A stretch of DNA of 64,000 nt from Lophium mytilinum (Eukaryota > Ascomycota > Dothideomycetes > Mytilinidiales > Mytilinidiaceae). The notes under the pieces were generated by a model that ran no database searches, had not been told where the DNA came from, and saw only the letters and a list, made by a program, of their open reading frames with translations. Positions 15,771-34,155 of the stretch are shown here, one piece after another (position 1 is the stretch's first letter; each line of letters starts with the position of its first letter). The stretch lies in contig MU004191.1 in assembly GCA_010093605.1 (NCBI GenBank), positions 1,109,832-1,173,831 on the forward strand. The letters run 5' to 3'. The translations under genes were made by a program, and so were the position numbers.

Positions 15771-16050
15771 TTGGGAGTAATGGGAGTAATGGGAGTAATG
15801 GGAGTAATGGGAGTAATGGGAGTAATNNNNNNNNNNNNNNNNNNNNNNNNNNNNNNNNNNNNNNNNNNNNNNNNNNNNNNNGGAGTAATGGGAGTAATGG
15901 GAGTAATGGGAGTAATGGGAGTAATGGGAGTAATGGGAGTAATGGGAGTAATGGGAGTAATGGGAGTAAAAGCAGTAAATACAGTAATGGGAGTAATGGG
16001 AGTAAAAGCAGTAAATACAGTAAAGGGAGTAAAGGGAGTAATGGCAGATA
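15771..16050. repeat. 9-bp minisatellite (TGGGAGTAA)n with variant units
   Basis: Near-perfect units of TGGGAGTAA run from 15771 to about 15968, interrupted by unresolved bases. From 15968 the array degenerates to related units (AAGCAGTAA, ATACAGTAA, AAGGGAGTA); the block GGAGTAAAAGCAGTAAATACAGT occurs twice, so larger units have themselves duplicated. All frames stay open through it only because 9 is a multiple of 3; the apparent Ser-Asn-Gly or Leu-Pro proteins are not taken as genes. Confidence 0.95.
15827..15881. other. Assembly gap (55 N)
   Basis: A run of 55 N bases inside the 9-bp minisatellite. The true number of repeat units is unknown. Confidence 0.99.
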
Positions 16051-17497: not shown

Positions 17498-17509
17498 TGC
17501 GGCACAGCA
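17498..17509 (+). promoter_or_regulatory. Cluster motif TGCGGCACAGCA, 65 bp before GT25-1
   Basis: Exact 12-mer shared with sites at 20516, 21514 (reverse) and 26002, followed here by CATGGCAG. Sixty-five bases separate it from the ATG at 17575. Probable binding site of a common regulator, or a short dispersed repeat. Confidence 0.6.
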
Positions 17510-17574
17510 CATGGCAGTCTCCGGGCGGTTTCTGTTCTCAGCGGCGGTACGGTAATGTCACTTCTTAACGATAT

Positions 17575-18878
17575 ATGATGGCCTGGCGCCTGGCACAGCG
17601 TCTGTTCCAGTTGAGTGGTGTGAGGATTATGTCGACGATGCATTCGAAAGGTGTACCTGAGGTGCGCCTTACTGCTAAACACATTCGCTATGGTTCATTT
17701 GCTCTTTTCATCGTCTTCGTCTGCAGTCTAGGCCTCTGGTCTGATTCTATTCTATTTCCACTACATAAACTCGCTCCTATTGCTGCCAGCCTCGAGCTCC
17801 CAGCCAACTCTACACTCGGCTTCGGCGCTTTACTCGCTGTCTCACCAGCAACCTCCCCACGCCGTCATGGTCTTATACAAGCGGCAAACGTCACGGACAT
17901 GCAGATCACTTTCCCTGAGTTGCCGATCTGGACGGATGAAGATGAGCAGAACTTCAGGGCTCCAACTGGTGTTGGAGAATCGAGTCTTACGAAAGGCATG
18001 GTGTTTGCGTGGCTGAGCCATCTACATGTGCTGAGATGGTAGGTGGTTTTCTCCTTGCCTGACCATAATCGCTCACAGTATTTAGGTTTTTGGAGTCTGG
18101 CCTAGAGACTGCTCTTATCATGGAAGATGATATGGACTGGGACATACATCTCCGGACCCTTCAGGTTCCCCGAGTCGCCGCGTCGATCCGTTCGCTATTT
18201 AATCAAACCAAGGATCCATCCCTTTACTACTACGGCGACCTCAATCGATGGGACATGATTTACCTTGGACATTTCGACCGCTGGAGCTGGCTAGGAACAG
18301 ATATTGGTGTTGGCGTCCTGGTCCCATCAAATCTCACAGACCACCCACACCGATTCATCCCAGATGACACCATGCCGCCGCGTTACGACATGCATCCAGA
18401 AATGGCATCTGTCCTTACAGCTCTGGACGTGCCCCCAAACACCCGGATCCTGCATCCCTCCAAGTTCCCCTTCGGTAGTTGGGCATATGCTGTCACCCGA
18501 GAATCCGCGGCTCGAATTCTCTCAGATGATGTGGCAAGCGCGGCAGCCCCAAAATGGGCATCAATGGACTCGCTGGACAATGCTTTGTCACGGGCTTGTG
18601 GGGGCGGAGCGCTGCGATGCTATACCGTCAACCCCGAAATCTTCCATCACCTAGAGGGTCCGAAGAACTCCCTGATCGACTACAATTATGATCGTACGGA
18701 GAAGTCCAAGGCTGTGATCAACCAAAGGCTTCGTACAGGGGAGACAGATCACATTCGGTGTGGATTCGCAAGTGGGCATTTTGAGTATGGTAATGATACG
18801 AAGTTCTTGAAGTACCTCCGAACGGAGGTGGGAAGGAAAGGAAGGTGTTTGAAGCCTGGTCGTGAAGCTCCTAAATGA
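17575..18878 (+). CDS. GT25-like glycosyltransferase, single-pass membrane protein (copy 1)
   Basis: Predicted Golgi/ER glycosyltransferase of the GT25 (LPS-type) family; donor and acceptor sugars are unknown. Exons are 17575-18038 and 18086-18878, 418 aa. A short cytosolic N-terminus is followed by one hydrophobic signal anchor (YGSFALFIVFVCSLGLW), then the lumenal domain: LPANSTLGFGALLAVSP, the WLSHLHVLRW helix, and the acidic metal-binding motif MEDDMDWD (E168-D170). YLGHFDRW, PFGSWAYAV and the late NPEIFHH follow, all shared with the paralogue at 26080. The intron splits the Trp codon of LRW|FL, exactly as in that paralogue. A second in-frame ATG at 17629 would still leave the anchor intact. 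First gene of a cluster of five secretory-pathway genes. Confidence 0.85.
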
Positions 18879-19350
18879 TGGAAGACGCACTTGTGTATTA
18901 TTAGTTATACTAGAGGATCAAGATAGATGCCTGGCGACCAAGGTTGCACATTTGAGAATTGTCTGCACCGCAAGCATTAGAGCTAAGAGAGATAGCTATG
19001 AAGCATCATAGTGAATTTGAAAAGAAAAATCGTTCAAAAGGTATCTCTGCGTGCATACATCCTTGCTCCCCCTTCTAATATGAGAGCATCAGTTATATCT
19101 ACATCCCAAGATTGAAACGCCAAACTCCCCACCGAGTGACTCGTTGGGACTATCTCGGAGCGTGAAGCGCTGCTTCGCCGCCTGAAGGGAATCCGAAGGA
19201 GGATTTCTGCGTACCGGTCGCGCTTCGATACTAGCTCGAGTAAGGTGCACAACAGAGTATCCACATGGCTCTCGTACTCACTCAGCTCGTACCTACGCGT
19301 GCTGGCACGACTTCAACTGGATTGAAGTCGTCAACGGGTTTGTGACAGCT
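18879..19350. other. Intergenic region between convergent GT25 copies 1 and 2
   Basis: Convergent 3' ends; no recognisable coding sequence. Confidence 0.5.
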
Positions 19351-20453
19351 TCACTCTTCTTTGGGGCCAGGTCTGGGACCCATACAGGTCACCAGTTGCT
19401 TGGACCGCGAAACGCTGTTGCATCTAGCGCTGTGCCAGATATTGTCCGTCATTTCCTTTTCGAGAACGTCTTTCTTATCTTCCGACGGTCCGTTAATAAG
19501 GCTGTCCTTCTCTCCGGCAATCTCGTGATGGTGAAAGAGCTCTGGGTTGACACTGATGCAGCGTAATTCTTGTCCCTTGCAACGAATGTGTAGCCAGATG
19601 TCGAAGCCTTCGGAGCCATGATCATCGCGCGCTAGGATTTTCTTTGCGCCCTCCGCAGTGATCGCGTATGCGTATGTACAAATGGGTCCGGCAGAGTAGT
19701 GTATCCAGCGGATGTGTTTCGGATCAGGCGACACAGCCCCCTCCCAAGAGTTGATGTACGGAGGTACTGTGGGATCCGCAAGAGTTATGGGCTTCGGGTC
19801 GTAGACAACGTTCTCGCCACAGTGGCCCAGCCACAGGACGTCCCATTCCGTCCCATATGGAGGCAGGTGGAATGTTGGCTGCCCAGGTTCTTGAGAAGGC
19901 TTCTTGTATCGCGTCAAGTTTCGTACCGCCTCCGCTATTATTGGCATCTCCATCCTGATCCCCACGTCCCAATCCGCGTCATCTTCCAGTATGAGGGACG
20001 TCGCGTGTGTTGCGGCTGTTTTTAGGGCGTTCAGATGGCCGAGCCAAGACAATGCGCCCCCCTTCGACATCTGGTGTTTGGCTATCATAGCACTTGTGTC
20101 TTTATCTGTCCACGCCGGCTGAACGGGAATCTGGATCTTGAGGCCAGTGTACGCAGCGGCTTTGAGTAAGCCATCTTTTCGCCATCGGTATCGTTGAGGA
20201 GCTTTTGGGGGCGCAACCGCGAGGAGCGCTGCAAACTTCGCCAGGTTAGGGTCAAGAATATATACTTCTGGGAAATGGAAGTACGCACTCCTAATGTCGC
20301 ATTGCCGGCGCCATAGTCCACGATTCTAGGAGTCCAGAAGCCATTCGGATGGAAGCGCTGTACCAAGAAAATCGCGTTGCACAACAACAGAGCAGCAATC
20401 AAGAACTTTGCGCGAAAAGGATTCAGATGAGGGAAAGATATCATGGTATACAT
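19351..20453 (-). CDS. GT25-like glycosyltransferase, single-pass membrane protein (copy 2, divergent)
   Basis: Predicted lumenal glycosyltransferase, sugar specificity unknown. Exons are complement(19351-20235, 20289-20453), 349 aa. The N-terminus carries a signal anchor (FLIAALLLCNAIFLV). Then come GNATLG|FAALLAVAP at the splice junction, the WLGHLNALK helix, the acidic motif ILEDDADWDV, VLWLGHCGE, TYAYAITAEGAKKIL and VNPELFHHH. It is clearly homologous to copies 1 and 3 but much more diverged: it lacks the intron at the W|F position and has one near the N-terminus instead, so it is the older branch. An upstream in-frame ATG exists at 20564; the start at 20453 is preferred because it puts the anchor near the N-terminus and the shared motif at 20516 outside the coding region. 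Confidence 0.83.
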
Positions 20454-20515
20454 GCGACGCAAAGACAAGAAATGGTACAAAGTGGCCTCATCGCGGGCCT
20501 CCACGATGACTTGAA

Positions 20516-20527
20516 TGCGGCACAGCA
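20516..20527 (+). promoter_or_regulatory. Cluster motif TGCGGCACAGCA, 62 bp before GT25-2
   Basis: Exact 12-mer on the plus strand, upstream of a minus-strand gene; 62 bases separate it from the ATG at 20453. The ends TGC...GCA are symmetric, so a dimeric factor could read it in either orientation. Confidence 0.6.
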
Positions 20528-21072
20528 GAGTAGGTAGTTTTTGAAGCTTGTAGCCTTCATCCATGCTGCGCGATGAGAAATTCAGCCCAGGGGCTCTCTA
20601 GCCGCTGCGTCCAGTCAATGCGCCGCCTGCCAGCCGGCCGCTCATGGATGTAACCGCTGCCGCTAACTTCAAACAAATACGGGCCGTCGCGCGGGGACCA
20701 CACCGAAACTCTCTCGCCATATTTCCGATCTGACTTTGTGGAGTGCTTCGCGCATAGAGATATCGGCTTGAGGCACACGAGACGCCTAGGTACGTTCGAC
20801 CGCTATGGACGCGGTGTTTCATGTTCTACCCTCAATAAATCCGATTCTCTGCAGCCGACTTGGCGACCTCCTGAGTCCATGGACCCCTTGTATCGACACC
20901 AGTTGCTGGCTTTCTGTAAGGAACTAGAGCGAGATAGTAGCCGCATGGTGTGATTCGATTAGCTCCGGCTACATCCTCGATGATCTTGGCCTCAGGAGAA
21001 AGCCAAGGAAGAAACCCGCTTACCCTCGCCTGGAAAGTCTGCCTCCCGGAATCCGGGCGCGTAGCTCGTCGC

Positions 21073-21084
21073 TGAGGCACAGCA
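21073..21084 (+). promoter_or_regulatory. Cluster motif variant TGAGGCACAGCA
   Basis: One mismatch to the 12-mer, in the divergent promoter; followed by CGGG as at 26002. The same variant recurs at 23873. Confidence 0.35.
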
Positions 21085-21513
21085 CGGGTTGTGGAAATCA
21101 AGATCAGGAGTGGACCCTCGCATTACCACTGAGAAAGCCGAACGGGACCTTCAAGCCTTGCAAAGCTACCCAGTGATCGTGTTGGGCAAGCCACGGAGAA
21201 CATCTCTGACCGTCAACCGTACAATGATCAGTGGGTTGGGAGTTCTAACGATACACGCCGTCCTTGTCTGGGATATGCTGGCTTTCTAGCCTATTGCTCT
21301 TTCTTGCATCAACATATCTCGATCGTTTAGACTGTCCCTGTACACGAACAGTGCCAGCTTCTTCACCCTTCAGCGGCTGTCGCGTTGGGCGCCTCCATGG
21401 ACTCTGTGATTGAGCTGCCCCTGTAGCAGAGCTCCGCAAATGCTATACCCATGGCTAATTTTATGCAGCGTGTGGCAAGTAAGTTTCAAAGTAGCCGCTG
21501 CGCCCTGGCCATC

Positions 21514-21525
21514 TGCTGTGCCGCA
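21514..21525 (-). promoter_or_regulatory. Cluster motif TGCGGCACAGCA before the pseudo-pepsin gene
   Basis: Exact 12-mer on the minus strand, 130 bases before the ATG at 21656. It is followed on its strand by GATGGCCAG, close to the CATGGCAG that follows the 17498 copy. Confidence 0.6.
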
Positions 21526-21655
21526 CTACCAAGCTCATGGCTACAATCATGGAAAGGTAGGCTGTACGACGGCGAGCGTCTCTCATGTGGGCCACTCTCT
21601 TCACTGCCTCGTTTTCTTCATTCATTGTGCCAAGTCTCTGTACTTCGCTCTTTTC

Positions 21656-23398
21656 ATGATGGCTGGTACCGGTGTCACCATCATGTTGCTTCTACTGTCT
21701 TTTTTGTTTAGCCTTCCAATCAATGCGCAGAATTCGAATTGCAGTTTTGCACCTGTCAACCTTCCCATACGACTGGTAGGGCTGCCAAATCAAGGCTTTA
21801 CGCGAGGAGCTTACCTTGCGATGGGAACTCCTCGACAGAACTTCAGTGCCTTACCTATGGCGTCAGTAATGTGGTCGACTTAGTCGAGGAAGAAGTGTGT
21901 ACTAACTTTTATCAGGGAAGTCAACAACACCTTCGTCTTTCACCATGACGACAAGTGCCAAAAGACCGAAGCGGCGTGCATGACGTATCGAGGCGGATTT
22001 TTCGAGCCCGAGAACTCCCCTACCTACGTGAACCAGAGTGCTCCCAATGCCAAACTTAATCCCAACTTCGCCAGCTCCGAAAAGCTCACAGACGGAGGAA
22101 CCCTCGCCCAGGACCAAATCACACTGCTCGATAACTTGACTATTCCGGACTTTCCATTTGGACTCGTCAATCAAAGTGTCAATACCGGAAGACTCTTCAA
22201 CTCCGTCTCCGCCGGGCTAGCATCTATCGGTCTCGGGAGAAATTCAACAATATTGTCTTCGCTCAAGAAAGCTGGTACTATTGGTTCGAGGAGCTATGGC
22301 TTTTGGTGGGGTCTTGACGGGGCAACAACACCAGCGCAGATGAACGGAAACTTGGTCCTTGGGGGCTATGATCAGGCCAAGATCAAGGACCTGTCGAAGA
22401 ACCACACAGACAGGCTCACCTCACCAGGAACCTGCTCACAAGGCATGCTCATTACCTTCACAGAAATCAAACTCAACTTCCCAAACGGCTCGGAACCGAA
22501 TCTCCTAGATCAGTTTATTGGGGGCTATAACCTCCAAGCATGTATCTGCCCTTCCTGTGCGACGGTAATGTCCATGCCTTTGGATCCTTACTTTTCTCGC
22601 TTCGTGGACTGGACAGAGTCCGTCCCTATCGATCGCTCTGTTGGAATCAACTTCTTCACAATGATGTATGCCGGTGGGACGGCATACCAGGGAGACCTCA
22701 CCTTTACAACGGACGCCGGTCTCTCCATTCGCGTTCCGAACAGTCAGCTAGTTCTCCCAGACCTCACCATTGCGGACGACGGAAGTATCGCCACCAATAC
22801 TAGTGTGCAAGACCTCATGATTTACAGTCTTCAAGACGTAAACAAAAATGATATGCCACGTATCGGCAAATATTTCTTCACGGCAGCTTACTTGCACGTC
22901 AATAACGACGCCAACACATTCACAATATGGGAAGCGAATCCGACCACAGATACCGATGTAGTAGCTGTCTTGGACGATGACTTGGCAAAAGAATGCAACG
23001 TCGTCCAGCCGAAGGCCACCCCTATAGAATCCTCTGGATCGGTCCCGAGTAGCACAAGTTCCTCGTCGCCCACTGGAAGTCCACCCGCCTCCAAATCGAA
23101 TAAGCTAGCAGCCGGTGCTATCGCTGGTATCGCCGTGGGATCGGTGGCAGTAGTAGGCCTAATTGCCGTGCTATTGTGGCGGGGCCACTCCAGACGGAAA
23201 CAAGAGAGGGCAGATGCAGCTGCGCAAGCCAATGCTGCTCTCAACATTTCACCTCCCTACCAACAAGCTGTGCAGACCCCTATGGTGGAGATGTTTGGAC
23301 ATGAACCACCAGAGGTGAAAGGGAGCGTGCTGCCACCTCAGGAGCTTTGGCCAGGCAGGCAAAAGTACGAACCGGACGTTCACGAGATGGCAGGATAA
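21656..23398 (+). CDS. Pepsin-fold (A1) pseudoprotease with C-terminal membrane anchor
   Basis: Type I membrane protein with a peptidase A1 fold that appears catalytically dead. Exons are 21656-21861 and 21916-23398, 562 aa. Residues 1-24 are a signal peptide (MMAGTGVTIMLLLLSFLFSL). The ectodomain shows A1 landmarks: YLAMGTPRQNF, SAGLASIGLGRNSTI, NGNLVLGGYD. Where active enzymes have the first DTGS, the sequence reads ALPMAEVNNTFVF. Where the second DTG/DSG would follow the ACI strand, it reads ACICPSCATVMSMP. Both catalytic aspartates are therefore missing. A Ser/Thr-rich stalk leads to a membrane segment at about 466-490 (AGAIAGIAVGSVAVVGLIAVLL) and a cytosolic tail of about 70 residues. 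Such inactive A1 proteins are known in fungi; a binding or sensor role is inference. Confidence 0.82.
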
Positions 23399-24225
23399 CA
23401 AGAATTGGATACGATTGATGTTGATCTACGGGAAGCATGGGCAGAGCCTTTTGCTGCATATCTTTGTTTCTTGAGCGATTGTATGATATTATTTGGATAC
23501 CCGTTATGTCTATAGATATAAAAGTAGAAGACGTGTTTAGATAGTCGCCTAATTGCCAATTCAAAACATTAATTTCGAGGAAATGTTCGCTCTCTATGAG
23601 CTAACTCGAGAGTGGCTGTTATGCTCCTGATGAACCACCCGGACTTGCAAAACCTGATGATAGTGAGTTCATAAGCTTCCGCGAAAGCGGTGTTAGACGC
23701 TAGATAAGCAACAAGATCAGGTAGCTTCAAGTCCAGCAAAAGCATTCAGTAGATCGCCAATAAAAGGGAGTGAAACGAGCACCTTCGTGTTGGCGTCCTG
23801 AAAAGGCCCTACACCGGTCCATAGGAAATTGTCTTCTCGTCCAAGGTTGCGGCGATGCCCCGTTGCCGCCCATGAGGCACAGCAGCAGCGGGTCCGAAAT
23901 GCTAAAATAGTTCTTCGTGCAGATTGGTTCTGAAACCAAAGTCTCGCCCCATGCACCTCTGATACGGAAAGTCCAGGATATGAGCTAGGTGTGAGCCCCT
24001 TACAATGAGCCCTATTAACACTGTTCTGGCACGAAAATCAGCAGTGGGACTCGTAGGAGGTCGATTTAAGATTCCTGTGCTACAATCGGCTAGCGCCAGT
24101 CCATGACGATCGTCCCGTGACCTTTAATATTACACGTATTTTCTCTACCTCGAACGCATAGATTCTTGAACTTCTTGATATGCCAAAGCGGTTCTATTGA
24201 CGCTGGACCTCTATCTATAATTCTG
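23399..24225. other. Intergenic region, convergent pseudo-pepsin and DUF3431 genes
   Basis: Short minus-strand frames at 23717-23956 and 24090-24386 have no recognised homology. A variant cluster motif (TGAGGCACAGCA) lies at 23873-23884 although no gene start is near it. Confidence 0.4.
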
Positions 24226-25334
24226 TCATTGAAACACTTCCTGGTTTCTACGTCGATCCGGATCCCCAATACGCTGGATGCTTGAAGATTCAGAGGGCGG
24301 TGCCTGGTATATACGCTGGAAGGTGAGATCATAATTAGTCGCCATTCCTGGAGAAGAATGGAGTGATGCAACTTACTTCTGCACATTTACCGAAAACCTC
24401 ACACGAGCACTCTTCAGCCGCGGGGCAGTAAACAGGCTCTCTACCGAATATGATATGCCACAGATATTCCATGATTCGGCCGCTGATGTCGTCAACGAGT
24501 TCTGTTTCTAGCAGCCATCGGCGGAAGTCCACATAATCATCCAATGGCCGTTTCAGAACCTGGTCTCTCGACACAGCAAACTGCGCACAGCACGGGGTTG
24601 CAATGACGCGAGGCGGCTCTGTACCGTCGAAGAAGCGCTGCCAGACTTCTAGCATATAGCCTTCTACTCCTAGCTCTCCCAGAGGAGGTTGTCGGAACAT
24701 CTGCATTTCGTCTGGGCAACCAGGGTTGTGGATGCATCGCAAATTCACGTACCCATTCTTCTGTACGTAATCGATCCTCAGCCTATCCAACATGTTCTTT
24801 GCCATATAGCCGGGGGCATCGTTATGCCAGGCCTGAGGCCAGCCACCGCGATGACTATGTATAAACGCCATGATTTTTGGAAGGTTGTGGTAATTATCGA
24901 TGATGAAGGTGAGGTAAGGCATGGCTTCCTTCCCTTTGTTGGCCGCCGTATGCAAGGTTGAGTTTGCGTCATCCACGGCGTAGATATAGCGTTCCCAACT
25001 AAATGGGTAAGCCTGAGTGCTCCCCTAAATCTACTGGTGTTGCTTACTCGGGCAGGTCCTCAGCGACCCAATCGATGTCTTCTCTTGCGAGCCTTCCCAT
25101 CACGATGGCCTTCTCAGCGGCGACTTTCGGCGCTGCTTTTGGACCTGAGTCCACACTTGTCGGGCGAGCTTTTTGGTCATCTTGATGTCCGTGGCCATCA
25201 CTGTGTACTTGTTCGACAGGTATTGGGGAAGGATTTTCGGGAACTCCGAGACACGTATTTGAGGAACGCCGAATTAAAGCGATGGCTATAATTAGTAAAA
25301 GTGCCACTGCAACCCGAGATGGTCTCACGAGCAT
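24226..25334 (-). CDS. DUF3431 type II membrane protein (glycosyltransferase-like)
   Basis: Member of the fungal DUF3431 family, of unproven activity but commonly regarded as glycosyltransferase-like. The model is complement(24226-24315, 24377-24998, 25048-25334), 332 aa. Residues 7-21 form a signal anchor (VAVALLLIIAIALI), followed by a flexible Pro/Lys stalk. The family core then reads WERYIYAVDDANSTL, MPYLTFIIDNYHNLPKIMAFIHSHRG (in parts), then GYVNLRC, PPRVIATPCCAQFAVSRDQV, EYLWHIIFG and YCPAAEECSCEVFG. The last intron (24316-24376) has strong signals (GTAAGT, CTAAT, CCAG); if it is retained the protein ends at 24335 with 13 other residues. It sits between two GT25 genes and shares their topology, which supports a joint lumenal glycosylation role. 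Confidence 0.78.
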
Positions 25335-25561
25335 AGTGCAATGGCCTACCGCGAGAAAGAAAACTGTAGGAATCTCATGAGAAAAAGTATAAAACTAAAG
25401 AGTTTCTGATGAACGATACGGCGGAGAAGGAAAATCAAGGAGGGGGGATTGCATGAAAGGACATGGGATGAGCCGAGACATTGATGCCGCGGGGATTGTT
25501 CAAATACCACGGTTATCCTAAGACTCTCGAAGGCGCAGGGTGATGCTAGAGAGCGGCGCAG

Positions 25562-25575
25562 TGCGGCACCAGATG
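25562..25575 (+). promoter_or_regulatory. Shortened cluster motif upstream of DUF3431 gene
   Basis: TGCGGCACCAGATG equals the 21514 copy with two bases (AG) missing from its middle. It lies 227 bases before the DUF3431 ATG at 25334. Confidence 0.35.
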
Positions 25576-26001
25576 CAGTGCAGCAAAAGCTCTCAGGAAC
25601 ATCGTTGCAAGTAGCGAATCAGAAGCACCCATTCTGCGCATAGGCGCCGACCGCATCAGCAAAAGCCACTCCCGGAGCGATCCGAGGGTTGGCGAGACTA
25701 AACACCTGTTCTCTGGATCTATTTTCTGCCTCGCGGCTCGATCCCCTTCCGCAAGTCGGCAGACCAACATAACTCCTGGAAATTCCCCACTACTTATGAG
25801 AGACGGGCGTCTGCAAGTCTATCTTCTCGTTTGGCGACCATGAGGAGTCTCCCAAGACGATGGATCATAGCCGCCGTCTGCTCTGTTCCTGTACCGGAAC
25901 TCCGGCCGGTGGATTGTGGCATGAACAGAAACGTTTCATGTTATCCAGAATAGTACTACGCGCTGTCTATTACCGGATGAGCCTGTTGGTCTCAAGGGTG
26001 T

Positions 26002-26013
26002 TGCGGCACAGCA
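26002..26013 (+). promoter_or_regulatory. Cluster motif TGCGGCACAGCA, 66 bp before GT25-3
   Basis: Exact 12-mer followed by CGGGG; 66 bases separate it from the ATG at 26080. A half-site CATGGCACAGC follows at 26035-26045. Confidence 0.6.
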
Positions 26014-26079
26014 CGGGGGGTATCAATACATGCACATGGCACAGCTTTTGAATTCATCATTTCCTCAATCACTCCCATC

Positions 26080-27338
26080 ATGTATCCTCCTTACGGAAGC
26101 AAAATGCAATTACGTCTCTCTTCTCCCTCGCGGGGATTTGCCGTTAAAAAACCTCGAAATCGTCGACCTATCATTTTATCTGCACTCGCTGTGGTTATAA
26201 TATTTCTTGTATGGTCTCATTCGTACCAAGTCGTACTCTCATTCCCCAACTTCTCTTCGGCGCCAACGACTTTGCCTTCACCTGCGAACTCCACACTCGG
26301 CTTTGGTGCTATCATCGCAGTATCACCACCAAATTCGAAACGACGACAGGGCCTCCTACAGGCAGCCAATGTAACAGAGCTCGACATAACCATCCCAGAG
26401 CTGCCAATCTGGACCGAGGAAGACGTAGAGCAGTTCCGAAGCCAGCAAGCCCCGACTGAAATGCGGTTCCCGATGATCGCAGCATGGATGAGCCATCTGC
26501 GAGTGCTTGAATGGTGCGCACAGCACTCTTCACCCTCAAACACCCAAAGCTCACTAACATCTACTCAAGGTTCCTCTCAACCGACCTAGAAACCGCAATG
26601 ATCCTCGAAGACGATATGGACTGGGACATGCGCGCGCGCAGCCTCCAAGTCCCGCGCGCAGCCACCGCCCTGCGCGCTCTCTTCAACGCCACGCCAGAAG
26701 AACCACACGGCTACTACCCGCACCACTCGCACTGGGACGTGCTGTATCTCGGCCACTTCGACCGCTGGGCCTGGTTCGGCCAGGAGTCCGGCGTCGGCGT
26801 GCAAGTGCCCTCCGATCTGAAGGACGCCCAGGTCTTCGCCGACGACACGCTCCCACCGCGCTACAACATGGTACCCAACGTCGCCTCCATCCTAACAGCG
26901 CTCGACGTCCCGCCTCATTCGCGTGTCGTGCATCCCTCACGACAGCCGTTCGGGACATGGGCGTACGCCGTCAACCGGCGCTCGGCGGCCAAGATTCTCT
27001 CCGATGAAGTCGGCAGCCCGCGGGCGCCGAAGTGGGTGTCGGATAGCTTTGATAATACGATGGTGAGGGCGTGTGAGAACGGGCTGCTGCGGTGCTGGAC
27101 TGTGTTTCCGGAGATCTTCCACCATCGTGAAGGGCTGCTGACGAGCATGATCAACCTCCCGAATGAGTTCAAGCCGACCAAGCTCGATGAAGAGCGGCGG
27201 AATCGGACTGGCGAAACGGATGGGATAGGGTGTGGATTTGTGAGTGGCGAGCTTGACTTTGGGGACGACGAGGAGAAGTTGGAGCGGCTTAAAGATGGTG
27301 CGAGGAGGGGAGTGTGTATGAAAGAAAGGAGATATTGA
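26080..27338 (+). CDS. GT25-like glycosyltransferase, single-pass membrane protein (copy 3)
   Basis: Close paralogue of the gene at 17575. Exons are 26080-26513 and 26570-27338, 400 aa. A Lys/Arg-rich cytosolic tail precedes the anchor (PIILSALAVVIIFLVW). The lumenal domain has PANSTLGFGAIIAVSPP, TIPELPIWTEEDVEQF, the WMSHLRVLEW helix, the acidic motif ILEDDMDWD (E158-D160), VLYLGHFDRWAWFG, PFGTWAYAVNR and FPEIFHHREG. The intron interrupts the Trp codon of LEW|FL at the same point and phase as in copy 1, so the two arose by duplication after that intron existed. Codon use is more G+C-biased in the second exon than in copy 1. Confidence 0.86.
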
Positions 27339-27971: not shown

Positions 27972-29777
27972 TTAACGAATCGTCATTTGCTTGACGACGC
28001 TCGCTTTGGCAGTGGCACTGCTCTCCCTTGATGCTCCCGCTGAGCCCGCCTTCTTCTCGAACAACTTCCAGAACTTGAGCGACTCGTCCGCAGCTGCAGT
28101 TGCCAGCATCTGTCCATCGGGGCTCAGGCAGCTGTGCAAAACACGGGATTCGTGGGCCGGGATCTCGACGTTCTTGACAAGGGTAGGGTAGCTCCAGATG
28201 CTAAGGCTGTTGTCCGGGAAGCCGGAGCTGCTGACAATCTCCTTGTAGCCGGTGCTCCACCTCAGGCTCGTGACTTGGGATCCAGTGTCGATGCTGTTGG
28301 TACGAGCACCAGTAGTGGAGTTCCAGAAATGAATATGACGGTCGTGGCTCCCACCGCCGGTGGCAAGGAGGTTGGATTGCCATGGGCACCATGCCAGGGC
28401 CTTGACGGCGGCACGGTGGTTTGTCTTGGTGAACTTCGGGGCCTGGAGGCTACGGGCATCCCAGATTGAGACAAGGTTGTCGTTGGCGCCAGTGGCCAAC
28501 TGTGCGCCATCAGCGCGCCATTCCAGACCGCAAACCTCGCCAGTGTGCGAGACGAGCTCGGCGACCTTGTGCTGAGCAATGCGCACGTCGTGGTTGTACA
28601 CAAGACCGGAGCGGGCACCGGTGGAGAGGATGTGCTTGTTCCATCCCATGACGCCAACGCGAGTCTCGTGGCCGAACATGCTTCGCAGCTTGGTGCCTTC
28701 CTCGACGTCCCAGATCTGGACTTCTCCCGTGCCAAGTCCGACACCGACGTAAGCACCATCACCGGACCACTTCACCGAAGAGACGTAGGTGTCGGTGGGG
28801 ACCTCAAGAAGTGATGAAACATTGCCAGACTCAGCAGACCAGATGTAGACTGAACGCTCGAGGCCAATGGCGACCTGGTTGCCAGAAGACCAGTCCAGGA
28901 GGTTGAGGTAGTAGTCGTCAACGAGACCTGGTGCATCGAGAACACGCTCTGGTGCCGAAGGAACACGACGACGGAACTGCGCTGAGAGACCTCCGGCTGG
29001 CTTGAGAGGTCGGTTGTATTGGGATCGGAGGTCAATGGGCTTCGATGATTCTGGAGCAGCAGGCTTGAACGCAAGTATGCGAGTGTTGAGTGACACACCA
29101 CATGCGGAGGCTAGGGATGACTGGTATGCAACTGCATTTGGCGAGGGCTTGGTGTAGATCTGGCCGTCATCCTCACCGTCATCCAGGCACAAGCCTTCGA
29201 GGGAAAGTGTGGCATCGTCTTCGGATCCTCGTCCGCCGAGGTCAAAGGCGCTCGCAGCGGTGGCGAGAACTGCCGAGCCGTCGCCTTTGCTTGACTTGGG
29301 TCGGTTCTCGAGGTCAAGCTTGCCACCAACGTTGCAGATGGCGTCGCTAGCAGTCCGATTGGGGATGAAACGGTCGGCGGCGTTGTACGTGATCCTAGAC
29401 TTCCCAACACGGGGGCGGATGGCACCGTCCTTGCGAGACTTCAAAGGTGTCTGCTTTGTCGATGCGGTATTGCCGGTGCCAGTCAATGTCCAGTCTGATA
29501 CACCAAGCTCGAGCCGCCGAGGGGACTGGTTGGACCGAGCAATGTTGGACTTTGGCGAGTCACGGACCGAGGTCTTGGAGACTGAGCGGCCGGCAAGGCG
29601 TGACATGAAGTTGTTGGTGCCATGGATGGACTCTTGCTGTGCTCCGGGCACATCGGAGAGCTGGCGAGTTGGCGTACGGGGAGAGGGTGTCAGTGGCATC
29701 CGACCGCCGGCGGTACGGAGGTTGAAGGCACTCTTGTGAGTGTTCCGCACTGGCGTGCAGACTGCTGGGCTGGCCAT
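27972..29777 (-). CDS. CDC20: APC/C activator Cdc20 (Fizzy / Slp1)
   Basis: WD40 coactivator that loads substrates onto the anaphase-promoting complex and is the target of the spindle checkpoint. Single exon, 601 aa. Residues 1-130 are disordered. The C-box DRFIPNR is at 135-141, and a Mad2-interaction-like segment (RILAFKPAAP) precedes the propeller. Seven WD repeats follow from about 290 (LNLLDWSSGNQVAIGL, YVGVGLGTGEVQIWD, LATGANDNLVSIWD, LLATGGGSHDRHIHFW). The protein ends in the Ile-Arg tail (QMTIR) that docks on the APC/C. The start at 29777 gives MASPAVCTPVRNTHKSAF, normal for fungal Cdc20. A TATATATA stretch lies about 50 bases upstream of it. Cdc20 is favoured over Cdh1 by the Mad2-interaction-like segment. 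Confidence 0.95.
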   Translation of the reverse strand: MASPAVCTPVRNTHKSAFNLRTAGGRMPLTPSPRTPTRQLSDVPGAQQESIHGTNNFMSRLAGRSVSKTSVRDSPKSNIARSNQSPRRLELGVSDWTLTGTGNTASTKQTPLKSRKDGAIRPRVGKSRITYNAADRFIPNRTASDAICNVGGKLDLENRPKSSKGDGSAVLATAASAFDLGGRGSEDDATLSLEGLCLDDGEDDGQIYTKPSPNAVAYQSSLASACGVSLNTRILAFKPAAPESSKPIDLRSQYNRPLKPAGGLSAQFRRRVPSAPERVLDAPGLVDDYYLNLLDWSSGNQVAIGLERSVYIWSAESGNVSSLLEVPTDTYVSSVKWSGDGAYVGVGLGTGEVQIWDVEEGTKLRSMFGHETRVGVMGWNKHILSTGARSGLVYNHDVRIAQHKVAELVSHTGEVCGLEWRADGAQLATGANDNLVSIWDARSLQAPKFTKTNHRAAVKALAWCPWQSNLLATGGGSHDRHIHFWNSTTGARTNSIDTGSQVTSLRWSTGYKEIVSSSGFPDNSLSIWSYPTLVKNVEIPAHESRVLHSCLSPDGQMLATAAADESLKFWKLFEKKAGSAGASRESSATAKASVVKQMTIR

Positions 29778-30412
29778 TGCTGCTCCACTCCTACTAGCGG
29801 TGTATTAGCCAAGGCCCGGAGTATATATATGGTTGGGACATACAGTATGTTTTTTGGTTCTGCTGCTGGGTTTGGGTATTATTAGTATTATACAATGGTG
29901 TAACTGATGCAAAGAAGAACTTTGTACAGAGTAGTGATTGGGTTGAGTGCAATTGAAGGGGTGTGTGGTAGAGGGTGAGGAAGGCGGATGGTGGGAAGCA
30001 AGAGCTTGCAGAGGTGCCAGCGGCCTTTTGTAGCTTCTGTTTACGCCTGTCGTCGCTGTGGTGATGGAAATTGCGGCCCGTGCACGAAAGTCACCTCCAC
30101 TTCCCAGCTTTCTCAGGGCTGTGCGTTGCGCCACCGGGATGCCGAGCCAGGTGTGTTCGAGCCGGCAGCCGAGACGCCAAGCCCCGCTCCGCTCACGCTC
30201 ACGTCGGCGCCAACGTCGCAGGTGCTGGGGGCGGTGAATCTTCAGCCGCTCCTTCAATTCGTAGCCTCACTGCCCGCCTTGCCCGCCCCGTTTGCCCTCC
30301 AGACGTAACCTGCAGGCCATTTCACCTCCGCTGCGTGCCTCACTCAGTCTCACGGCCCTTGATGGCCCTCGCTCGCTGCTCTGAACAACTTTATCTAGTC
30401 TGAAGTCACTCA
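29778..30412. other. Divergent promoter region CDC20 / kelch-BTB gene
   Basis: TATATATA at about 29822-29829 is a candidate TATA element for CDC20. No gene seen. Confidence 0.45.
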
Positions 30413-32731
30413 ATGGCCCATCAGGTCTACCAGCCTTCCACCCTCTTTGCAGACACTACTATTTCCTCGACCTCCTCCGCCGCCCCCGTCTCGACGCCCG
30501 CGTCGTCCTCTAACAACACCACCTTCCTGATGTCCGCCAGCCCGATGCGCACCCGGAAGGCTGCCACCGACAGCTACCGCCCCAAGATCATCTCCACCAT
30601 CGGTGCCAAGCCTGCCTGTCTCGTCAATGCCTCCGTCACCTACGTGGGGAACGACCAGATATATGCCTTTGGTGGATTTGATCAGTACACCGATGAAGGT
30701 GTGTGCTTCATGTCTTAAGAAACTGGGCTATTGTGGACTAACACATGCAGTGTACAACCATGTGCTCAGATTAAATCTTGCTTCAAAGCAGTGGAATCTC
30801 GTTGATAATTATGGGGACATCCCTGGGGTCCGGATGGGTGAGTGCTACTAGTTTCACACTCTCGCCTCTAATCACCTAACTCAAGAGCAGGCCACACGGC
30901 AAACCTCTGGCAGGGAGATAAGTTGCTCGTATACGGCGGAGAAAACGAACATCGCGCCTATCTCTCTGACGTTATCATATTCGACCTCAAGACTGCCCAC
31001 TGGACCCAACCCGAGCTCAATGGACCTGCCCCTAGGGGCCGAGCTCGACATTCCGCCGTCATCCACGATGAGAAGCTCTATATCTGCGGTGGTATGACTG
31101 GGCACGAGAGCTATGTCCTTGACGACATATGCTATCTCGACTTGAAAACCTGGACCTGGTCACGCACCTGGAGATTCGTGCCACGTTACGACCACACGAG
31201 CTGGATCTGGAATGGCCGCATCTGGATATTCGGAGGTCTTGGCGAGGATATGGAGCGGATGAGCGAGATCTGGTGGCTGGATATACGCGGTAGCCCCGCC
31301 TTTGAAGCCCCCATGACATATGGATCGGGAGAACGCCACTTGACGGCATCTAGATATCAGAGAGGGTATCCCTTCACCAACAGCAATCCTCCCCAGACTG
31401 GTACAACCGGATACGTTGCGAACTCCAGCAGTGTGCAGAGCAATCCCAGCCAGCTCTCCGCTAATCGGAACCCTCCTGTAGCTCCAGGCTCAATATCCTC
31501 CCTGAAGTTCCATTCTAGTCCGAATCTGCCAACCCAGGCTTTGGGAACACATTTTCATGTCTATTCTTCAGGATGTCTGCTGGACTTCGTTACACCAGCA
31601 AGCATCATCTCGTCTTTCGAAACGAGTCTCTCCGCTCTGGATTTGGACACGCTACAGTGGCAGAAACTGGCTGATGGCAAGGATCTGTTCAATCCCGGAT
31701 ATCGTTGGCATTACTGCGCTATGAACGAGGACGGCACGCAGGCCTGGCTACTTGGTTGCCCGAATGAGCCAACCAACAACGCTGGCGATGCGACTGGAGA
31801 GTATCTGAGCGACGTTCTACCAATTGACCTCCGTAAATTAGGTCTCCTGGGCAATTCTTTGACGAACGAGTCTCGATCGAAGACCAAGATCCCATCATCG
31901 GACGCCAACATTTCCTCTTATCTCTCCGGAATCGGCGCCGATCTCGCCAAGACGTTCGACCAGCGGCCTGAAGACGGAAGCGGTGCTGATTTCTCCATTA
32001 CTGCAGACCGCGACGACGATTATGACGTAGTGGACGACTCCTCTATGACCGAGAGTGGTGTATCGGGAGCCTCCATCAACACTTCGCCCCCGATCCACGT
32101 TCACAAGCTTATTCTACAAGCACGATGGCCCCACTTCGCGCGTCTGTTGTCTGCACAGATGCTGGAATATCACACCAAGAAAATGCACATTCCAGAACCG
32201 TACTCGGCCGTTCGCTCTTTTCTGTACTATCTGTACACAGATAGCATCGCTAACTACCCACCCCATGGTCCTTCGCTTTCCGATGTTGCTGGCATGCTGG
32301 TCATGGCCAACATCTATGACATGCCCCGTTTACGCCTCCTGTGCGTGAACCGCTTGTGGAAAGAACTCGACGTTGAACATGCAGCCATCATTTGGGAACG
32401 TGCTGGTACAGCCAACGAGGAGTGGCTCAAACGACGTGCCGGTGCTTTCTGCATGCTACATTGGGGACGAGTCGTGCGGACCGCAGGATTCAAGAGCTTA
32501 AGCCGTGGGAGCATTATTGAAATCTGCGAAGAGGTCGATATTGAGGGCAGAGTCGTCGGTGGAGACGAGCTCGAAATATTCGGCGGTCTTGGAGGCGGTC
32601 GTTTCGGCGTTGGAGGCTCTGGAAGAGACGGCAGAAAGAGAAGCATCGGCAGTGCGGGAGTCTTAGGAGGTGGCGAAGACGATGGAGAGGGCGATGGTGA
32701 AGATGAAGACGAAGGAATGGAGCTGAACTAG
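30413..32731 (+). CDS. Kelch-repeat and BTB domain protein (Ral2-like)
   Basis: Exons are 30413-30698, 30751-30837 and 30891-32731, 737 aa. A Ser/Thr-rich leader is followed by a kelch propeller: VGNDQIYAFGGFDQYT, KLLVYGGENEHRAYLSDVIIFD, KLYICGGMTGHESYVLDDICYLD (in parts) and RIWIFGGLGEDMERMSEIWWLD. A long Ser/Pro insert separates these from the last blades. A BTB domain lies at about 540-640 (VHKLILQARWPHFARLL, VRSFLYYLYTDSI). The tail is Gly- and acid-rich. The layout resembles fission yeast Ral2, needed for Ras1 activation, and fungal kelch-BTB proteins. A scaffold or ubiquitin-ligase adaptor role is inference. The intron junctions restore DEVYNHVLRLN and RMGHTANLW. Confidence 0.88.
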
Positions 32732-33252
32732 CGTTTGTCAGTATGAATGGAGGAAACCGGTACTGATCTCACGGCAACGCGAGATTTCCTATTTGGAGGA
32801 ACTCTCGTCGGGACGACTGTTATGATTGTTGATTGATTAAGCGTTGGCGTCCAGTGTTTATGAAAATGGCTCCTCTTTTCCTTCTATATCGGGGTTGAAT
32901 TTGCGGTCAAACGGGCATCTTCTGGGAGTATCGGCATGCGGGTATCAGGCTTACATTTAACGAGTCGATCTCGTCACCAACGAAACGTATGGGAGAATGA
33001 CAAACCAAGGTAGCTTGATAGATACAACATGGTAATAACGTCATGAAACTGATGAATACACACACATCGGCAATCTCATGTGCTTCGGTCTATAACCCCT
33101 GAAAGTGAGGGGACTTTAAAACCCCGCGCTCGTCATCGGACAATTGACACCGAAGCTCTCGAACTTTTATACCCCCACTCCCCCGCCAGGCACTCAATCA
33201 ACAACAACACTACTCTAACCCTTCTTTCCATCTCAAACCTCAATCACTCACC
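32732..33252. other. Intergenic region before the omega-amidase gene
   Basis: A CT-rich, ACA-rich leader directly precedes the ATG at 33253, typical of a well-expressed fungal gene. No further feature. Confidence 0.45.
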
Positions 33253-34155
33253 ATGGCGAAACTCCTTAAGCAGCCCCTCAAGCTCGCGCTCATCCAATTA
33301 GCCTCGACCGCCGACAAAACGCACAACCTCGCGCACGCCCGTACCAAAGTCCTCGAAGCCGCGCGCGCCGGCGCGCGCGTCGTCGTCCTCCCCGAATGCT
33401 TCAACTCGCCCTACGGCACGAAATACTTCGCGCAGTACTCGGAAACGCTGCTGCCCTCGCCGCCATCGGAGAAGCAATCCCCGTCCTTCCACGCGCTGAG
33501 CGCCATGGCGAAGGAAGGCGGCGTGTACCTGGTCGGCGGCAGCATCCCCGAGCGCGGGCCGGCCAGCGACAACGACGGCAAGAGTCTCTACAACACCAGC
33601 CTGACTTTCTCGCCCAAGGGGGAGCTGCTGGCGACGCATCGGAAGGTGCATCTCTTCGATATCGATATCCCGGGCAAGATCAAGTTTAAGGAGAGCGAGG
33701 TGCTGAGCCCCGGCAACAAGATCACGATTGTTGACTTGCCGGAGTACGGGAAGATTGCGATTGCGATTTGCTATGATATTCGCTTCCCGGAGCTGGCGAC
33801 GATTGCGGCGCGCAAGGGTGCGTTTTTGTTGCTGTACCCTGGGGCGTTTAATCTGACGACGGGCGCGCTGCATTGGGAGTTGTTGGCGAGGGCACGGGCG
33901 ACGGATAATCAGGTGTATGTGGGGTTGTGCAGCCCGGCGAGGGATATGGAGGCGGAGTATAATGCGTGGGGGCATAGTATGGTGGTGGATCCGAATGCGG
34001 CGGTGCTGGAGCAGTTGGATGAGAAGGAGGGGACTGTGTATGCGGAACTGAAGGGGGAGAGGGTGGAAGAGGTGAGGAGTGGGATTCCGTTGAGAGATCA
34101 GAGGCGGTTTGATGTTTATCCGGATGTTAGTGAAGGTGGGAAGTTCGAGGAGTAG
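33253..34155 (+). CDS. NIT3: Omega-amidase, nitrilase superfamily (NIT2/NIT3 type)
   Basis: Hydrolyses alpha-ketoglutaramate and alpha-ketosuccinamate to the keto acids plus ammonia, in glutamine and asparagine transamination salvage. Intronless, 300 aa, the normal length. The catalytic triad is visible: E48 in LPECFNSPYG, K131 in HRKVHLFDIDIPG and C173 in AICYDIRFPEL. FKESEVLSPGN and ARARATDNQVYVGLCSPA are further family marks. The start is supported by the CT-rich leader ending in ACC ATG G. G+C content is high, with GC-only third positions in the first half, suggesting strong expression. NIT1 (deaminated glutathione amidase) is the alternative; the FNSPY and DIDIPGKI segments favour NIT2/NIT3. 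Confidence 0.93.
   Translation: MAKLLKQPLKLALIQLASTADKTHNLAHARTKVLEAARAGARVVVLPECFNSPYGTKYFAQYSETLLPSPPSEKQSPSFHALSAMAKEGGVYLVGGSIPERGPASDNDGKSLYNTSLTFSPKGELLATHRKVHLFDIDIPGKIKFKESEVLSPGNKITIVDLPEYGKIAIAICYDIRFPELATIAARKGAFLLLYPGAFNLTTGALHWELLARARATDNQVYVGLCSPARDMEAEYNAWGHSMVVDPNAAVLEQLDEKEGTVYAELKGERVEEVRSGIPLRDQRRFDVYPDVSEGGKFEE

Follow-up and report, generated by a model that had tools for sequence, protein, structure and literature searches.

Do five neighbouring genes of three unrelated families, lying between nt 17498 and 27338 of the window (the whole 64 kb stretch of DNA that was analysed), form a functional unit, or do they merely stand side by side? The first-pass annotation placed here three GT25-like genes, a DUF3431 gene and an inactive pepsin (A1) gene, and all five are present at those positions. 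Their ATGs were checked and are predicted at 17578 (or 17575), 20453 (minus strand), 21656, 25334 (minus strand) and 26080, with one predicted intron per gene:

17578–18878, plus strand, G1: GT25-like type II membrane protein, 417 aa (exons 17578–18038 and 18086–18878; further in-frame ATG at 17575)
19351–20453, minus strand, G2: diverged GT25-like type II membrane protein, 349 aa (exons 20453–20289 and 20235–19351)
21656–23398, plus strand, G3: homologue of pepsin lacking D-[ST]-G motifs, 562 aa (exons 21656–21861 and 21916–23398)
24335–25334, minus strand, G4: DUF3431 type II membrane protein, 316 aa (exons 25334–25048 and 24998–24335)
26080–27338, plus strand, G5: GT25-like type II membrane protein, 400 aa, local duplicate of G1 (exons 26080–26513 and 26570–27338)

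The surroundings are largely as annotated. CDC20 lies beside the five genes (27972–29804, minus strand), and the opposite flank is poor in ORFs: a 9 bp minisatellite was found at 15772–16044 (55 Ns within), and, this aside, there is no stop-to-stop ORF longer than 117 aa at about 13.7–17.5 kb. The proposal that the genes make up an accessory island is unsupported by composition, because the GC content of 17498–27338 (52.0%) matches that of the window (52.7%), and a compositional island was dropped for the same reason. A small secreted gene hidden in the intergenic gaps was likewise rejected, as these contain no ATG-ORF of more than 80 aa.

All five products had been described as secretory-pathway membrane proteins, and hydropathy agrees, giving an N-terminal anchor in each of G1, G2, G4 and G5, and in G3 a signal peptide, an S/T/P-rich stalk and a C-terminal TM segment (residues 464–493). 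The family assignments held for DUF3431 and for the inactive pepsin homologue, both by Pfam, while the GT25 identity of the other three is reduced to a remote relation. The PF01755 cut-off of 24 bits was not reached by any of them (G5, 17.1 bits; G1 and G2, no match); three of the six GT25-like family members matched PF01755 at E ≤ 1, the best (E 0.0052) falling below the cut-off, and NCBIfam gave no match for the GT25-like proteins. A six-row profile of the family had five matches in the PDB. These were entries of procollagen galactosyltransferase 1 (COLGALT1, GT25 domain), with E values of 6.4e-5 to 1.1e-4, apart from a sole non-COLGALT1 match at E 0.65. The similarity is centred on the EDD motif and covers mainly positions 37–154 of the 387 in the profile; EDD.DW is invariant in all six aligned rows and aligns with the EDD of COLGALT1. 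In GT25 enzymes this acidic motif lies at the donor/metal site. Unlike COLGALT1, the fungal GT25-like proteins are short type II proteins under the PF01755 cut-off. A remote relationship to GT25 is supported by the profile match, and sugar-transfer activity may be supposed from it. The conserved EDDxDW has the appearance of a metal-site motif. Structure models were of very low confidence (pLDDT 31 for exon 2 of G2 alone, 37 when exon-2 rows from G1 and G5 were included), and a scan of the viral contig collection (viral_contigs) returned no GT25-like relatives.

G4 carries the full DUF3431 domain, as do the DUF3431 proteins of Aspergillus (Pfam PF11913: E 3.7e-87; 292.1 bits, cut-off 25; profile positions 1–219 of 219). 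No relative of this domain was found in the PDB (one chance match at 0.74), and scans of viral_contigs and of the prokaryote contig collection genome_contigs found none. In A. nidulans, the putative glucan synthase gene celA has a DUF3431 gene as its neighbour, and the DUF3431 product is predicted to combine a TM region with a sizeable outer portion (PMC5519750). That locus may differ from ours: the passages describing it mention no GT25-like or pepsin-like neighbour (PMC5519750).

The annotation of G3 as an inactive A1 protein is borne out. Its likeness to the pepsin family (e.g., the Candida secreted aspartic proteases) lies in a Pfam Asp match over residues 54–226 (E 1.8e-7; 31.4 bits against a cut-off of 19.9) and a weak phmmer match to 1j71 (0.011). 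The catalytic D-[ST]-G tripeptide is absent from all 562 residues, and the DTG of 1j71 stands opposite Met-Ala-Glu in G3.

A link between the five genes is found in their promoters. The window contains exactly five copies of the 8-mer TGCGGCAC (2.5 expected), one upstream of each cluster gene, and in four of the five promoters the 8-mer is part of an identical 12-mer, TGCGGCACAGCA, 62–130 bp before the ATG:

17498–17509, plus strand: TGCGGCACAGCA upstream of G1, 68 bp before the ATG
20516–20527, plus strand: TGCGGCACAGCA upstream of G2, 62 bp before the ATG
21073–21084, plus strand: one-mismatch copy TGAGGCACAGCA, between G2 and G3
21514–21525, minus strand: TGCGGCACAGCA upstream of G3, 130 bp before the ATG
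23873–23884, plus strand: TGAGGCACAGCA with one mismatch, in the gap separating the 3′ ends of G3 and G4, outside the five promoters
25562–25569, plus strand: TGCGGCAC 8-mer only, upstream of G4, 227 bp before the ATG
26002–26013, plus strand: TGCGGCACAGCA upstream of G5, 66 bp before the ATG

The probability that five random positions would land one each in five 300 bp promoters is 2.7e-10 (TGCGGCAC), and no 10-mer was found in at least four promoters in any of 1000 shuffles, both promoter tests having been done after the motif had been spotted by eye. When two mismatches were allowed, the window showed no excess of the 12-mer (9 matches, a number reached by 30 of 100 shuffles). With one rare word standing ahead of all five genes, their joint activation through a common promoter element is probable, and co-regulation has good support. 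Neither the element nor its use outside the cluster had been described in the first-pass annotation. Among the matches listed in a literature search with a 10-base piece of TGCGGCACAGCA, no title concerned a fungal promoter.

G1 and G5 arose by local duplication (support 99/97), which would fit a neighbourhood without common function, in which a GT25-like duplication came to lie beside unrelated genes and the words arose by chance or by duplication. Once the element is masked, however, the five promoters do not align, those of the G1/G5 duplicates included, and the idea that these two share the motif merely by duplication was rejected on that ground. Moreover, the element stands before genes of three unrelated families and is over-represented across the genome, making such a fortuitous grouping quite unlikely.

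In the 43 Mb genome there are 55 exact copies of TGCGGCACAGCA, compared to about 9 (9.25) per one-mismatch variant and to 5.6–12 expected from Markov models; the one-mismatch variant TGAGGCACAGCA has 17 copies. The flanks of 36 copies are near random, apart from a purine directly after the 12-mer, and an origin from a repeat or mobile element was rejected on this basis. The copies avoid ORFs of at least 100 aa but not those of at least 60 aa (24/30 versus 70%).

Fifty-one of the exact copies lie outside the cluster; the element is not specific to the five genes and is used elsewhere in the genome. Among the ORFs that begin no more than about 300 bp from a copy are those for DUF7730 proteins (three sites; no literature was found for this domain), SesA followed by DUF7779-TPR, ankyrin proteins (two), T5orf172, a terpene synthase and a pair of Cys-rich proteins related to each other, these targets having been named post hoc with starts taken from ORFs. 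Such variety, together with the number of outside copies, favours co-regulation without a common pathway, the element marking a broad regulon of accessory, surface or non-self genes of which the cluster is simply the densest spot. Against this, four exact and two near copies are packed into about 9 kb, far above genome density (P 8e-10 for four exact copies in 10 kb), and both of the motif-bearing places with GT25-like genes have a membrane surface-type protein as partner. This reading is possible but somewhat doubtful. A hydrophobic-start ORF within 300 bp was seen for 7/30 outside copies, compared to 6.1% of positions at the same loci and 13.2% of random window positions (P 0.09 against the latter rate), and with a stricter cut of 2.2 for 2/30 versus 3.3%; these counts weaken a genome-wide reading.

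The second motif-bearing place is on contig C10, where a GT25-like gene and a membrane-protein gene diverge, with two exact copies of TGCGGCACAGCA in the space between them. On contig C2, the only strong paralogue of pseudo-pepsin G3 has a DUF3431 paralogue as neighbour at 1.6 kb. Counting against the module, even the 8-mer TGCGGCAC is absent from the C2 pair and from three other GT25-related loci (C1, C3 and C7) in the 3.2–8 kb read at each, and none of nine other DUF3431 places is within 19 kb of an exact TGCGGCACAGCA copy, as judged by comparing the lists by hand. The common rare word, its genome-wide excess, the motif-bearing C10 pair and the C2 linkage together argue that the five genes belong together, as first annotated, and that the cluster probably works as a jointly regulated module for surface-protein modification within a broader regulon. 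The module's purpose is perhaps the decoration of cell-surface proteins, with a glycan as the presumed product; the role of binding partner first suggested for the pseudo-pepsin is likewise hypothetical.

For this probable module, the following mechanism can be proposed. A putative transcription factor would bind TGCGGCACAGCA before the genes and turn the cluster on together, and the products, judging from hydropathy, would enter the secretory pathway. In the ER/Golgi lumen, the three GT25-like type II proteins, with their EDDxDW motif, and the DUF3431 type II protein may transfer or modify sugars (a function for DUF3431 being conjectural), acting on type I surface proteins expressed alongside them; pseudo-pepsin G3 would be the example within the cluster. 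The same factor may also drive the C10 pair and further genes. Taken as a whole, this account seems to us about evenly balanced between right and wrong.

Fungal metabolite clusters typically combine tight grouping of genes with a shared promoter element, one word being common to neighbours from unrelated families, and the present locus has both features. It could accordingly yield a modified peptide for secretion or some other metabolite, the membrane enzymes then carrying out tailoring reactions. Unlike such clusters, its five genes include no backbone enzyme (PKS, NRPS, terpene or peptide precursor), transporter or regulator, the first two by a Pfam scan of these five, in agreement with the annotation that this is not a usual metabolite cluster. 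The gaps contain no ATG-ORF of more than 80 aa, and, again unlike those clusters, its word recurs at 51 places outside. A metabolite product is highly improbable.

SesA and HET genes serve non-self recognition. An unlikely but wider-reaching idea is that TGCGGCACAGCA is a candidate regulator site joining a surface-coat module (in which GT25-like and DUF3431 enzymes would modify surface proteins of pseudo-pepsin type) with accessory sensing genes (SesA/TPR NLR-like, ankyrin, DUF7730 and secreted Cys-rich), which would place cell-surface identity and non-self recognition under one control.

Next to nothing is known of what GT25-like and DUF3431 proteins do in fungi: in the literature searched, DUF3431 is named in three papers, none of which mentions it together with glycosyltransferase family 25, and that family appears in a fungal context in three. 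A common exact promoter element makes such neighbouring genes, which have no assigned function, a testable module, in which the 12-mer offers a handle on the regulator and further targets. Pseudo-pepsin G3 is a candidate acceptor; ten N-glycosylation sequons lie ahead of its TM segment.

Each of the five genes in the cluster beside CDC20 has a one-intron model, in a genome of 43.18 Mb assembled in 24 contigs. By hydropathy, N-terminal anchors are present in G1, G2, G4 and G5, and a signal peptide plus TM segment in G3; G4 carries a DUF3431 domain over its full length. The first-pass annotation had taken all five for secretory-pathway membrane proteins, and gene content and topology agree with this.

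GT25-like genes of the cluster and ORFs beyond CDC20
17578-18878, plus strand: G1, GT25-like, N-terminal anchor by hydropathy
20453-19351, minus strand: G2, diverged GT25-like, N-terminal anchor by hydropathy
26080-27338, plus strand: G5, GT25-like, N-terminal anchor by hydropathy
30872-32731, plus strand: Kelch/BTB ORF, beyond CDC20
33148-34155, plus strand: carbon-nitrogen hydrolase ORF, beyond CDC20

A repeated word before the genes was spotted by eye during reading, and the tests were made afterwards. The 12-mer TGCGGCACAGCA occurs exactly four times in the 64 kb (17498, 20516, 21514 on the minus strand, and 26002) and is common to four of the five promoters (300 bp each), its ends lying 62 to 130 bp upstream of the ATG in either orientation. 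None of 1000 dinucleotide shuffles gave any 10-mer in at least four promoters. Apart from these and two one-mismatch copies (TGAGGCACAGCA, below), the window holds no further copies with up to one mismatch and, with two mismatches allowed, no excess; the Kelch/BTB and carbon-nitrogen hydrolase ORFs (30872-34155) have no motif copy. The first eight bases, TGCGGCAC, are found exactly five times in the window (2.5 expected), one ahead of each gene, that of G4 being 227 bp upstream of the ATG. The sequence TGAGGCACAGCA occurs 17 times in the genome, two of them in the window (21073 and 23873). With the motif masked, all ten promoter pairs, including the G1/G5 duplicates, score under the 95% shuffle level, which suggests that the element alone has been retained between the promoters.

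G1 and G5 are 52% identical, share an intron behind a conserved Trp, and group together in a tree of six proteins (support 99/97); G2 (36% identity) is a diverged relative with a different intron. Seven GT25-related places were found in the genome: G1, G2, G5, C1:1273 kb, C7:1836 kb, C10:1147 kb and a weak one at C3:862 kb, which alone is above the Pfam cut-off. EDD.DW is invariant across an alignment of six of the seven. Their profile matches procollagen galactosyltransferase 1 entries (6.4e-5 to 1.1e-4; sole other match 0.65), in line with the earlier reading of three GT25-like enzymes, but the Pfam GT25 model stays below cut-off for all six. G1, G2, G5 and the aligned relatives are therefore termed GT25-like here, not GT25.

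By its Pfam Asp match (1.8e-7), G3 is a homologue of pepsin. MAE stands opposite the DTG of 1j71, and no D-[ST]-G occurs in the protein; its earlier description as an inactive A1 protein fits this motif loss. The only strong G3 paralogue in the genome (119 and 90 bits; next 26.5) is on C2, and the three minus-strand frames across it also contain no D-[ST]-G. It lies divergent to a DUF3431 gene, 1.6 kb apart, which has the top identity (54%) and top summed score (175.5 + 101.2 bits) among nine other DUF3431 places. The chance of such linkage is about 0.2% by hand estimate.

Related divergent gene pairs
L037:2625-6623 (G000:C2): paralogues of the pseudo-pepsin and of the DUF3431 gene, no motif copy
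L038:1-2850 (G000:C10:1144500-1147349): GT25-like gene and partner, with 12-mers

On C10, two exact 12-mers lie between the genes, one 98 bp from the start of the GT25-like gene and the other 179 bp from that of its partner. The partner has a signal peptide, an S/T-rich stretch and one TM segment (by eye), and no Pfam family above cut-off. Even TGCGGCAC is missing from the C2 pair and from the GT25-related places at C1, C3 and C7.

Genome-wide, TGCGGCACAGCA is over-represented, mostly outside long ORFs: there are 55 exact copies, against five of the reversed control and about 9 per one-mismatch variant (388 sites with up to one mismatch, leaving 333 across 36 variants, or 9.25 each). Markov models trained on the window and on loci read elsewhere in the genome give an expectation of 5.6 to 12. 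We know of no regulator for this sequence. Outside the window there are 51 copies, of which 32 were read (30 in L002-L030, two in L038). Only 2 of the 30 lie under an ATG-ORF of at least 200 aa, compared with a rate of 32.7% for control positions drawn from those loci (P 0.0008); for ATG-ORFs of at least 60 aa there is no difference (24/30 versus 70%). The ATG of an ORF of at least 150 aa is within 300 bp of 9/30 copies versus 15.6% (P 0.03). Hydrophobic-start ORFs lie within 300 bp of 7/30, versus 6.1% in the same loci and, not significantly, 13.2% in the window (P 0.09). Judged from these ORF positions, the 12-mer acts like a non-coding, promoter-type element, and there is no more than a suggestion of a link to secretory genes beyond the cluster.

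ORFs whose start is at most about 300 bp from a copy elsewhere (compiled after the fact)
L002, L003, L025 (three sites): DUF7730 ORFs
L011:4615-7575: SesA ORF, then DUF7779-TPR ORF (NLR-like), exact 12-mer 141 bp ahead of the SesA ORF's ATG
L020, L030: ankyrin ORFs
L027: T5orf172 ORF
L008: terpene synthase ORF
L009, L029: two related Cys-rich ORFs, unlinked (36% over 78 aa)

This list is a lead to targets outside the cluster. The Cys-rich ORFs match no Pfam family, and many other scanned ORFs near copies gave no family. DUF7730 stretches number 99 in the genome; eleven form a dense group at G000:C1:369-388 kb (L002, L003), with an exact 12-mer just 5′ of two genes. At L020:2931-7396, the ankyrin gene with the 12-mer upstream is divergent to a HET-domain gene (Pfam HET 6.2e-25).

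In the mechanism we propose, one factor would bind the element before the cluster genes, which would be co-expressed; within the ER/Golgi, the GT25-like and DUF3431 proteins would modify glycans, with pseudo-pepsin-type proteins serving as acceptors. The literature is thin; one report describes a salt-induced DUF3431 gene of A. glaucus (PMC4212599).

Also in the window, a 9-bp minisatellite of TGGGAGTAA units occupies 15772-16044, with a 55-N run at 15827-15881.
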